DNA from: Devosia epidermidihirudinis | GTDB taxonomy: Bacteria > Pseudomonadota > Alphaproteobacteria > Rhizobiales > Devosiaceae | NCBI RefSeq assembly: GCF_000971295.1 | Contig: NZ_LANJ01000016.1 | Coordinates: 1 to 64,000 of the forward strand | Length of the DNA: 64,000 bases | Direction: 5' to 3' | Shown here: positions 58,625 through 61,541 of the stretch, one piece after another | How the letters are laid out: each line of letters opens with the position of its first letter | How positions within the stretch are numbered: the first letter of the stretch is position 1 | Notes under the pieces: generated by a model | Seen by the model: only the letters and a program-made list of their open reading frames with translations | Database searches by the model: none | Told to the model about the DNA's origin: nothing | Translations under genes and position numbers: made by a program

Positions 58625-59650
58625 TTATTCCGCAGCGGCCTTCTGGGCGTCGGTGCGTTGGTCGGTGATGGCCAGCGTTTCGGCTGATCCCTCGACCTTG
58701 CGGCGGATGCGGAGGCGTTTGATGCGGCGGCTGTCGGCGGCGAGGACTTCGAATTCGAAGCCGTCGAGTTTGGTGACGCGTTCGCCGCGCTTGGGCACAT
58801 GGCCGGCCAGGTCGAAGACCAGGCCACCAATGGTGTCGACATCCTCGGCGTACTCGCCGGGATCGAATTCGGGACCCAGCATGGCGCGGACATCGCTGAG
58901 TTCGGCGCGGGCATCGGCAATATAAGTGTCCGTGCCGACCTTGCGGATCAGCGCGGCCGCGAGTTCGTCATGCTCGTCCTCGATCTCGCCGACAACGGCT
59001 TCGAGCAGATCCTCGATGGTCACCAGACCATCGGTGCCACCATATTCGTCGACCACGATAGCCATATGCACGCGGGAGGCGCGCATCGACTGCAACAGGT
59101 CGCCCACGGGCATGAAGGTGGGCACGAACATGGCGTCGCGGATGATGTCGAGCTTGCCCAGCTTCTGCTTAAGCACGGTCGAGACCAATTTGACCGGCAC
59201 TTCCTTTTCGGGATCGGTCACCGGCTCGGTGATCTTGGCCAGGGCATCCTTGACGTGGATGAAGCCCAGGATGTTGTCGAGGCCATCATCGTAAACCGGC
59301 AGGCGCGAATGGCGCACATCGCGGAAACGGGCAATCAAGCTGCCCAGGTTGATGTCGGATTCAACGGCCTGAATGTCGGAGCGTTCGACCATGACGTCGC
59401 CCACAGACACAGTCCCCAGTTTGAGGACGTTGGTGAGGATCGTGCGTTCGCTCTCGGAGAAATCGGCCTCCGCACTCCCCTGCTCTTCCAGCGCGACCTG
59501 AAGGTCATCGCGGAGGGAAACCGTGCGAAGGGCCATGAGGGCCCGGATACGGTTCCAGATCGACGGCCTCCGTGCAGGCACGGAGGCGGGACTAGAAGGA
59601 GGCTCGGGGTTGGCGGGCGTCTGAGGGCCCAAACTGTCGCTGTCGTTCAT
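58625..59650 (-). CDS. CorC/HlyC family CBS-domain protein (YbeX-like)
   Basis: 341 residues. Paired CBS domains (about 90-205: VGDVMVERSDIQAVESDINLGSLIARFRDVRHSRLPVYDDGLDNILGFIHVKDAL and DAMFVPTFMPVGDLLQSMRASRVHMAIVVDEYGGTDGLVTIEDLLEAVVGEIEDEHD), then a CorC_HlyC FAD-like domain. No N-terminal DUF21 membrane domain, so it is cytosolic. Implicated in ribosome or magnesium physiology with YbeY and YbeZ. Downstream of ybeY by 75 bp, last gene of phoH-ybeY-corC. Confidence 0.92.
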   Translation of the reverse strand: MNDSDSLGPQTPANPEPPSSPASVPARRPSIWNRIRALMALRTVSLRDDLQVALEEQGSAEADFSESERTILTNVLKLGTVSVGDVMVERSDIQAVESDINLGSLIARFRDVRHSRLPVYDDGLDNILGFIHVKDALAKITEPVTDPEKEVPVKLVSTVLKQKLGKLDIIRDAMFVPTFMPVGDLLQSMRASRVHMAIVVDEYGGTDGLVTIEDLLEAVVGEIEDEHDELAAALIRKVGTDTYIADARAELSDVRAMLGPEFDPGEYAEDVDTIGGLVFDLAGHVPKRGERVTKLDGFEFEVLAADSRRIKRLRIRRKVEGSAETLAITDQRTDAQKAAAE

Positions 59651-59703
59651 CGTTTGCTGCCGTCGGGTGACGGCTTTCTGACCTTTAAAAAGGAAAACTG
59701 CAC

Positions 59704-59721
59704 CGCCGATTATACGGCGGG
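59704..59721. repeat. Hairpin in the ybeY-corC spacer
   Basis: CCGCCG, loop ATTATA, CGGCGG. On the minus strand it is followed by a T-rich stretch (TTTTCCTTTTT), so partial termination before corC is possible; TATAAT in its loop could alternatively act as a -10. Confidence 0.4.
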
Positions 59722-59725
59722 CACA

Positions 59726-60199
59726 TCAATCGGCATAGGGGTCGTCTATTCCCAATGTAGCCAATATCTGGGTCTCAAGGCTCTCCATTTGAAGGGCCTC
59801 TGTGTCAGTGATGTGATCATAACCCAGAATATGGAGGAATCCATGCACGATCAGGTGCGTGAAATGATCGTTAAAGCTCTTGCCGAGGTCGAGCGCTTCG
59901 GCCTCCAGCGTCTCACGCGCCAGCGTGATATCGCCCAGAATGCCCACGACCGGCCCAAAGGGCTCGATCTGGGGGAAGCTCAGCACATTGGTTGAGCTGT
60001 CCTTGCCGCGCCACTGCTTGTTGAGCTCATGCTGCTCCTCGTCATCGGTCAAAAGGATCGACAGCTCTGCCGCCCCCCTCACCTTGGCCTTGGATTGCTT
60101 GAGCGCTTCGAGCACGGCACGTTCGGCCAGAGGATCGAGATCCTCCGGCCAGGCTTCGTCGTTGCGGATAATGGCGATGTCGAGCGGCGAGACGGTCAG
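59726..60199 (-). CDS. ybeY: Endoribonuclease YbeY (rRNA maturation factor)
   Basis: 157 residues if started at CTG 60199. C-terminal zinc motif HLIVHGFLHILGYDH (three His) is intact, as is the RGKDSSTNVLSFP block. Upstream of GTG 60115 the frame stays open and reads TVSPLDIAIIRNDEAWPEDLDPLAERAVLEALK, the usual YbeY N-terminus, but contains no ATG, GTG or TTG. A CTG overlapping the phoH stop (CTGA), 8 nt after AAGGA, gives a full-length protein; a GTG start would lose about 28 residues including the first strand. Confidence 0.9.
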   Translation of the reverse strand: MTVSPLDIAIIRNDEAWPEDLDPLAERAVLEALKQSKAKVRGAAELSILLTDDEEQHELNKQWRGKDSSTNVLSFPQIEPFGPVVGILGDITLARETLEAEALDLGKSFNDHFTHLIVHGFLHILGYDHITDTEALQMESLETQILATLGIDDPYAD

Positions 60200-61239
60200 C
60201 GCGGTATTCCTTCGGTGGCTTTTTCGGCCAGCTTCTTGGCGGTATCGGCCTCGTAGGCACGCACGATGCGGCCCACCAGAGCGTGGCGAACCACGTCCTT
60301 ATCGTTGAAGCGCGAAATATGCACGCCCTCAACGCCGTCCAACAGGCCAATGGCCTCCACCAGCCCCGATTTTTCGCCGCGCGGCAGATCGACCTGTGTC
60401 GGATCGCCGGTGACGATCATCTTGGAGTTCTCGCCAAGACGAGTCAGGAACATCTTCATCTGCATCGATGTGGTGTTCTGGGCTTCGTCCAGGATCACCA
60501 CGGCATTCGCCAAGGTGCGGCCACGCATGAAGGCCAGAGGCGCGACTTCGATGATCCCGGACGTGATGCAGCGCTCGACGTTTTCAGGCTTCATCATGTC
60601 GTAGAGCGCGTCATAGAGCGGACGCAGATAGGGATCGACCTTTTCCTTCATGTCGCCGGGCAGAAAGCCGAGGCGTTCGCCCGCTTCCACGGCGGGACGC
60701 GACAGGATGATGCGGTTGATATCGCCGCGTTCCAGCAAGGATGCGGCATGCGCGACGGCGAGATAGGTCTTGCCGGTACCGGCCGGGCCGACACCAAACA
60801 CCAGCTCGCTCCGTTCCATGGCGCGCATATAGGCATCCTGGGCAGGTGTGCGGGCGACGATAGTGGATTTGCGCGTGGCGATCTGGGCCATGCGCACCTT
60901 GCCCTTGCGCTCAAGGGTCGGCAGGGTCAGCTGGCTGTCTTCGGTCTCGATCATGCGGATGACGCCATCGACATCAGAAATGTCGACAGTGCGGCCTTCC
61001 TCAAGCGAGCCATAAAGGGATTCCAGCACGCGCCGGGCCTGATCGACCTGGCTGGATGCGCCTTTGAGCAAGACATGGTTGCCACGCGGCGTAGCCGTGA
61101 CCTTGAGCCGCTGTTCGATCAGCGCGAGATTTTGATCAAAATCGCCATAGAGCTGTGCGGCCAGGCGGTTGTCTTCAAAAGCAAGTTCGAGTTGCGATGC
61201 GAGTGCGTTGTCGGCGGTCGGGGCCAAATGCCTGCTCAA
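60196..61239 (-). CDS. phoH: PhoH-like ATPase (YbeZ)
   Basis: 347 residues from TTG 61239 (GGAG 10 nt upstream). Residues about 1-110 form the KH-like N-domain (LKVTATPRGNHVLLKGASSQVDQARRVLESLY), and the ATPase has Walker A FGVGPAGTGKTYLAVAHA and Walker B FVILDEAQNTTSMQMKMFLTRLG. Acts with YbeY in rRNA processing. An ATG at 61422 in the same frame gives a 61-residue extension that does not look like YbeZ. Confidence 0.93.
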   Translation of the reverse strand: MSRHLAPTADNALASQLELAFEDNRLAAQLYGDFDQNLALIEQRLKVTATPRGNHVLLKGASSQVDQARRVLESLYGSLEEGRTVDISDVDGVIRMIETEDSQLTLPTLERKGKVRMAQIATRKSTIVARTPAQDAYMRAMERSELVFGVGPAGTGKTYLAVAHAASLLERGDINRIILSRPAVEAGERLGFLPGDMKEKVDPYLRPLYDALYDMMKPENVERCITSGIIEVAPLAFMRGRTLANAVVILDEAQNTTSMQMKMFLTRLGENSKMIVTGDPTQVDLPRGEKSGLVEAIGLLDGVEGVHISRFNDKDVVRHALVGRIVRAYEADTAKKLAEKATEGIPR

Positions 61240-61541
61240 ACTGGTGTTGCTCCACGTGCATACGCGGCGCGGGAGTGCTCCGCGAGAATAGAAGGACGCT
61301 AGGCCGTTTTGCCAGCGATGTCTGTAGCAATATTGTGACGATACGTCGCCGCGACAAGGGTTTGGGTTCGGGCGGATTGCCTGTTCGGGTATCGTATACC
61401 CTAAAACGATCGCCATACGCAAAAAATACCCAAGATGATGCAGCTATACAGAACGCCATGCCCGTGGTAGTCTAATTTGTAGAATGGAATGCGATGGCCG
61501 CGTCTTGGGCGACGCGCCGTTGGACGGCATGGAGATGAGCG
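61240..61541. other. 302-bp divergent spacer phoH / cysteine synthase-like
   Basis: Holds the promoters of the phoH operon and the cysteine synthase-like gene. Its most notable element is the palindrome GGGTATCGTATACCC (61387-61401), with an extra ATACCC at about 61426-61431. No coding frame seen. Confidence 0.5.
61387..61401. promoter_or_regulatory. Palindrome GGGTAT-CGT-ATACCC, candidate operator
   Basis: Perfect 6-bp arms about a 3-bp centre; a third ATACCC half lies 30 bp on. Located about 140 bp before the cysteine synthase-like start and 150 bp before the phoH start. No regulator identified. Confidence 0.5.

Follow-up and report, generated by a model that had tools for sequence, protein, structure and literature searches.

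The infC gene of Escherichia coli has an AUU start codon and is under IF3 autoregulation, and it is not known to have a comparable overlap with an upstream stop codon. YbeY, which helps to mature the 3' end of 16S rRNA, likewise belongs to the translation machinery, and the CTG start that we propose for its gene in Devosia epidermidihirudinis would likewise be weak and noncanonical. It differs from that of E. coli infC in overlapping the stop codon of the upstream gene, phoH, and feedback is only a candidate feature of ybeY. Bacterial genes are rarely credited with CUG as their start codon. Among 61,358 ancestral AUG starts, 2 switches to CUG were counted in PMC5622118; like those rare cases ybeY would be a native gene with a CUG start, and unlike them its CTG is common to many Devosia species and to related genera and stands in a housekeeping gene.

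In geometry, the nearest counterparts of this locus are ATGA and GTGA reinitiation overlaps. Termination-reinitiation at overlaps of -4 nt is documented and falls off steeply when the genes are spaced ~13 to 38 nt apart (PMC10666635); among intergenic distances, -4 nt is reportedly the most frequent (PMC10666635; PMC6728339). The ybeY junction shares the -4-nt geometry described in these two reports and adds a Shine-Dalgarno (SD)-like sequence within the upstream gene; unlike the ATGA and GTGA overlaps it has CTG as the start, and neither CUG nor CTG occurs in the main text of PMC10666635. At Caulobacter dnaA, a CUG with an SD sequence and a toeprint is not used in vivo (PMC8443254). That gene has a downstream AUG, whereas the strict CTG-only ybeY genes described below have none near the N-terminus (PMC8443254 for dnaA). 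A stable mRNA structure past a stop codon, considered together with reinitiation, is known as a ribosome termination structure, or RTS (PMC7518266); the hairpin reported here is similar in kind, except that RTS is centered ~5 nt past the stop whereas the ybeY hairpin starts 47 nt past it, within the next gene. No CUG start of ybeY appears in the titles and abstract openings among the listed matches on ybeY or on CTG/CUG start codons, no autoregulation of ybeY in the parts covered of PMC7327168 or PMC10582724, and a search for literature joining IF3 discrimination, the infC AUU, and CUG start codons found none.

The phoH-ybeY junction

The window, a 64,000-nt stretch of D. epidermidihirudinis DNA, carries phoH and ybeY on the minus strand, with the following features.

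59726..60199, minus strand: ybeY (rRNA maturation endoribonuclease YbeY); with CTG as the start it has 157 codons and a stop; identified by translation, PF02130, and TIGR00043
60197..60199, minus strand: proposed CTG start codon, sharing CTGA with the phoH stop
60208..60212, minus strand: AAGGA, SD-like, 8 nt before the CTG
60196..61422, minus strand: phoH open reading frame (ORF), listed from a TTG (candidate start), with its stop TGA at 60198-60196; PF02562, 314.5 bits
60113..60115, minus strand: GTG, codon 29 of ybeY and first canonical start in frame; rejected as a conserved start
60128..60130, minus strand: internal CTG +68, codon 24, after GGAGGA in the hairpin; unlikely alternative start
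60124..60151, minus strand: 12-bp intragenic hairpin with a 4-nt loop, ybeY codons 17 to 25 plus one base; synonymous conservation in 20 Devosia CTG species

The 3' end of phoH reads GGA ATA CCG CGC TGA on the minus strand, and ybeY lies in the -1 frame relative to it; the -4-nt overlap of stop and start takes the form CTGA. An earlier sequence-only reading of this DNA had placed the ybeY start at this CTG (60199), overlapping TGA and with AAGGA 8 nt upstream, and its coordinates were borne out. It had also described the ybeY frame as open above GTG 60115, with no ATG, GTG, or TTG before the phoH stop; this is seen in the sequence, and the whole interval from the upstream in-frame stop to GTG 60115 lacks these codons. 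Translation from the CTG gives 157 residues, as that reading had stated, and an ORF caller limited to ATG, GTG, and TTG returns 129 codons from GTG 60115, 28 fewer.

The product matches PF02130 (121.8 bits; cutoff, 25) and TIGR00043 (134.1 bits; cutoff, 45). The three histidines of what we take to be the YbeY metal motif, H-x3-H-x5-H, are invariant (H119, H123, and H129) in 26 aligned sequences. An AlphaFold model of the protein (mean pLDDT, 86.6) has a strand at residues 6 to 12 and a helix at residues 19 to 36, and it superimposes on E. coli YbeY (1xm5_A) with TM scores of 0.82/0.84 over 153 columns. According to this model, the N-terminus of the CTG-started protein belongs to the YbeY fold. 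Within phoH, a match to Rfam RF02855 (a Yersinia small RNA, antisense) at 60252-60445 of the window, plus strand, scores 35.5 bits, well short of the gathering score (100), and probably reflects conserved phoH coding sequence.

The ybeY start site in Devosia and its relatives

The Devosia set comprised 75 genomes, 73 of them with a ybeY match, and the start could be classified at 71 loci; L067, where phoH lies beyond the contig end, and L074, where ybeY is broken in two frames, were dropped. The split in L074, whose genome (G002) is one contig and 91% complete, is probably an assembly indel. Thirty loci had CTG at -1 without a nearby ATG, 37 had a downstream ATG, 3 had TTG, and 1 had GTG. No Devosia locus (n = 71) was classed as using an overlapping ATG, GTG, or TTG as the ybeY start; L037 and L051 have TTG at -1, yet they have ATG at +14 too. 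The recurrence of the CTG start across the genus, like the hairpin described further on, goes beyond what the sequence-only reading had proposed.

Twenty of the 30 CTG loci are strictly CTG-only, with no ATG, GTG, or TTG from -45 through codon 24, and 10 carry some such codon within 24 codons. At L008 and L026, a GTG two codons past the CTG has an equally good SD (-9.2 kcal/mol), so that CTG is not the sole plausible start there. A canonical codon far upstream, in open frame inside phoH, is present at 2/30 loci (L003 at -373 and L018 at -73). Just four codons, no usual start among them, separate the CTG from an in-frame stop upstream of it in L016, L017, and L019, which makes a start further upstream impossible in these species. 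SD duplex energies were calculated against the anti-SD tail, whose sequence was taken from general knowledge; the duplex at the CTG averages -8.2 kcal/mol over the 30 loci, and an SD-like pentamer precedes the CTG at 28 of them. Sequencing error was ruled out as the source of the CTG, the overlap being identical in 30 Devosia loci.

The relatives with other start codons point to the same place. In all 37 ATG-type Devosia loci, an ATG lies 0 to 3 codons upstream of the CTG-aligned residue, an outcome of the comparison of N-termini with start codons that the sequence-only reading had suggested. Homologues without the N-terminal 28 residues, which it had named as evidence against its start, were looked for as well, and the homologues do not lack them. 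Outside Devosia, 61 genomes of the family yielded 57 fetched loci, 54 of which were classified after L078, L104, and L131 were dropped. Among these 54 rows, 10 have TTG as the overlap start, 8 CTG, 2 ATG, and 1 GTG; L128 has ATG at -1 as well, though the script put it in another class. Five of the 8 CTG loci have a canonical codon within 24 codons, and 3/8 are strictly CTG-only. For the rest of the order we hand-picked 40 loci, taking between one and four from each of the other families among those listed out of 292 matching genomes. At -1, 17/40 have ATG (10 loci) or GTG (7 loci), some with a second candidate, and 3/40 have CTG, each with ATG at +2; these counts include at least three loci at which the script misplaced the phoH stop (L161, L177, and L181) and one without phoH (L180). 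The presence of ATG, GTG, or TTG at the same overlap in the family and the order indicates that the site is homologous and that the first base alone differs. Judged from these loci, the NTGA overlap is a widespread ybeY start site at which the base N varies by lineage.

One locus of another genus, L100 (G109), stands apart. Its in-frame TAA is followed by ACC GAC CTG, with AAGGA ahead of the TAA; this CTG does not overlap the phoH stop, and the next NTG codons, CTG and TTG, lie 22 and 25 codons further in. The TAA and the single NTG at the N-terminus make it an independent CTG candidate.

By itself, the CTGA overlap is weak proof and its conservation is partly cheap, since phoH ends in C|TGA in 26 of the 41 classified Devosia loci with another ybeY start. 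Three things stand above chance: many species lack alternative starts, the feature is conserved, and relatives have ATG, GTG, or TTG at the same site. CTGA is invariant in the 27 gap-free CTG loci. Across these loci, the mean pairwise difference at codon positions 1/2/3 is 0.18/0.12/0.44 for codons 2 to 28 of ybeY and 0.53/0.36/0.31 for the ybeY frame upstream of the CTG, which indicates that a protein-constrained frame opens at the CTG or shortly after it.

The base before TGA is C in 30/30 CTG species, loci that were chosen for having CTG, and the last PhoH codon is CGC in 25, AAC in 4, and AGC in 1. For a CGN arginine codon, replacing the third base by any of the others would leave PhoH unchanged and would yield ATG, GTG, or TTG. 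Retention of C in the 25/30 species with these silent options, where PhoH ends in Arg CGC, suggests that weak initiation may itself be selectable. Elsewhere in phoH, 0/36 four-fold columns are invariant in the 30 CTG species, and C is the third base throughout in 2/137 full codon columns (30 species). In the species with longer loci, phoH ends in CGC|TGA in 22/22, and the ybeY and corC ends vary in codon and stop; over the three genes, 11/173 four-fold columns are invariant in this 22-species set. Given 11/173 and 2/137 invariant columns, one invariant base is not extreme alone. We consider it likely, though not proven, from these column counts that the CTG is kept by selection.

Competing starts and a probable route to the CTG

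Taken together, the lack of other starts, the conservation, the homology of the site, and the N-terminal fold make CTG 60199 very probably the real start of ybeY in D. epidermidihirudinis, and from them we infer actual initiation at CUG. The obvious competitor, a downstream canonical codon (here GTG 60115) giving a YbeY 28 residues shorter, is very unlikely. This GTG is the first ATG, GTG, or TTG in frame, as a standard ORF caller lists it, and a GTG at +83 is found in 19/30 CTG loci, but its SD is weak (mean, -3.1 kcal/mol), codons 2 to 28 are under protein-level constraint, and a start there would cost the protein strand 1 together with the first ten helix 1 residues. Nor does the next canonical codon have a fixed place: of the 23 strict CTG-only loci (20 from Devosia and 3 from other genera), 12 have it 28 codons in, and in the other 11 its distance ranges from 29 to 72 codons; GTG 60115 is not conserved as a start. 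Gene callers limited to ATG, GTG, and TTG would trim YbeY by 28 to 72 residues at these loci. Within the trimmed segment, the CTG at +68 (60130) behind GGAGGA might serve as an internal start, alone or for a second isoform. The codon is present in 23/30 loci and the SD-like match there is strong (mean, -9.7 kcal/mol); however, both SD and codon are buried in the 12-bp stem, the product would be without strand 1, and GGAGGA occurs at the same place without a hairpin in L061 and L101, all of which leaves this start exceedingly improbable.

Some other noncanonical codon near the N-terminus could be used instead, either ATC or ATT at +20 to +29 or CTG at +8 or +14. ATC or ATT codons are found at +20 to +29 in most of the 30 CTG loci, and infC of the same genome has an apparent ATT start with AAGGA 9 nt upstream, resembling the AUU start of E. 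coli infC. Yet the common ATC and ATT codons of ybeY have weak SDs (means of about -1.6 to -2.5 kcal/mol) and encode strand 1 residues, the ATG of ATG-type congeners is located upstream of these codons, and CTG at +8 and CTG at +14 occur in 4/30 loci each; we hold such a start to be highly doubtful. Finally, ybeY might have no independent start, with a -1 slip near the phoH end producing a PhoH-YbeY fusion. The gene is in the -1 frame, and in most of the 30 CTG loci this frame stays open for a stretch upstream, but in three species the in-frame stop leaves four codons before the CTG for a slip, and by inspection the X-XXY-YYZ heptamer is absent there in L002 and L016. By the general distance rule for frameshift stimulators, the hairpin, beginning 47 nt past the phoH stop, is too distant to act as one, and 37/71 Devosia loci have a separate ATG start of ybeY. 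A fusion therefore has next to no chance of being the explanation. As an aside on infC of the same genome (around 128700-129250, minus strand, contig C8; locus L158), an ATG lies four codons past its ATT.

With CTG 60199 as the start, the geometry of the junction suggests that reinitiation after phoH is probably the route to it. A ribosome would terminate phoH at UGA, be held there by AAGGA 8 nt upstream, and reinitiate with initiator tRNA at the overlapping CUG, yielding full-length YbeY of 157 residues with fMet as the first residue. The weak codon and the coupling together would hold YbeY low and tied to PhoH, and low dosage may be the purpose of the weak start.

A conserved hairpin inside ybeY

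Codons 17 to 25 of ybeY plus one base form a hairpin, TGGCCGGAGGAT-CTCG-ATCCTCTGGCCG, of 12 bp and about -21 kcal/mol, in whose stem GAGGAU, which is SD-like, is paired with AUCCUC, which resembles an anti-SD. An energy of -21 kcal/mol is reached in 16/20 species, with L014, L017, L019, and L035 at -17 to -18. When the peptide was redrawn with synonymous codons (three versions, 20,000 draws each), -21.0 was reached in a fraction of 0.00015 to 0.0004. The mean third-position difference is 0.06 in codons 17 to 25, 0.49 in codons 2 to 16, and 0.33 in codons 26 to 40; single conserved third positions also occur outside the hairpin (codons 12 and 38), and the loop bases vary. Of the hairpin cells, 94.2% are paired (shuffles, 3/500). 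Covariation is weak, with one pair changed on both sides, in the otherwise broken L043 (shuffles, 44/500). As judged from these figures, it is synonymous conservation that carries the case for the hairpin.

Predicted accessibility of the SD and CTG did not differ with and without the hairpin (0.45 versus 0.46), the folding of 161 nt around the start was not more stable than that of shuffles (z, 0.81), and Rfam searched over 59500-60700 gave three matches, all under their gathering scores and none on the hairpin.

Several origins of the hairpin were rejected. It is not a repeat or mobile palindrome: in the 75 Devosia genomes, the pattern with 0 or 1 mismatch occurs at ybeY only (19 genomes). 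G017 is the 20th genome with the palindrome at ybeY, with 2 mismatches; every other palindrome hit carries 2 mismatches, these hits being spread over 16 places, and a reversed control gave 5 hits. Its distance is wrong for an RTS, the stem starting at +44 to +47 against an RTS minimum at 5 nt past the stop as given in PMC7518266. A hairpin position set by the phoH stop in all Devosia was discarded too, since another hairpin, present from about codon 9 in many non-CTG Devosia, tracks ybeY codons instead; it lies between +36 and +69, but in L052 and L053, which have a longer spacer, it lies at +75 to +99. Nor were CTG species more structured overall: the mean minimum is -15.4 kcal/mol in the 10 CTG loci without the palindrome versus -17.0 kcal/mol in the others. 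These others, 41 non-CTG Devosia loci with a mean local minimum of -17.0 and a lowest value of -21.6 kcal/mol (codons about 8 to 40), show that strong local hairpins are per se common in ybeY.

We placed the start codon and the hairpin on a tree of 50 species built from phoH, ybeY from codon 32, and corC. In one clade of 33 Devosia species, the hairpin is present in 20/21 CTG species and 0/12 ATG species. On the best tree, the ATG state requires 3 changes and hairpin absence requires 4. Three of the four hairpin changes coincide with those of the ATG state (L023; L028 with L036; and a group of nine), and the fourth absence is L043, which has the CTG start and a broken hairpin. The chance of such coincidence is ~4e-5 by branch length and 1e-4 with equal branches; an independent-pairs sign test has 3 pairs only, with a median p of 0.25. 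The nine-species group is nested in the hairpin clade on unstarred branches (84/76), and because of this it may never have had the hairpin. On this tree, CTG start and hairpin look coupled in the clade, although three contrasts cannot prove it. The hairpin is absent from the 10 CTG Devosia loci outside the hairpin set and from the 8 CTG loci of other genera, so it is not required for the CTG start. The joint presence of CTG start and hairpin in one species group hints at a tuned signal for translation, of a kind that can escape gene finders.

More speculatively, and with a low probability in our estimate, the CUG start and the hairpin could form one autoregulatory device through which YbeY, or the quality of the 30S subunit, sets YbeY synthesis. 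Mature, IF3-bound 30S subunits would reject the weak CUG, and poor 30S maturation would lead to more use of it; the hairpin would be a candidate target on the mRNA for binding or cleavage by YbeY or immature 30S. Such a device predicts the joint loss of both elements once ybeY gains a spacer and an ATG. The ATG lineages of the clade have a phoH-ybeY spacer of about 50 to 165 nt. A hairpin that comes and goes with CTG in one clade makes selected weak initiation testable at one locus.

Two further observations concern structures elsewhere in the genus. Spacers of roughly 50 to 165 nt separate phoH from ybeY in several Devosia lineages (L023, L028, L029, L033, L034, L045, and L057), and several of these spacers contain palindromes themselves. 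A different hairpin, made by the VIRNADG codons, is common in the other Devosia branch, with its stem at +41 to +68 in L048 and +42 to +66 in L072; its position goes with the ybeY codons and not with the phoH stop.
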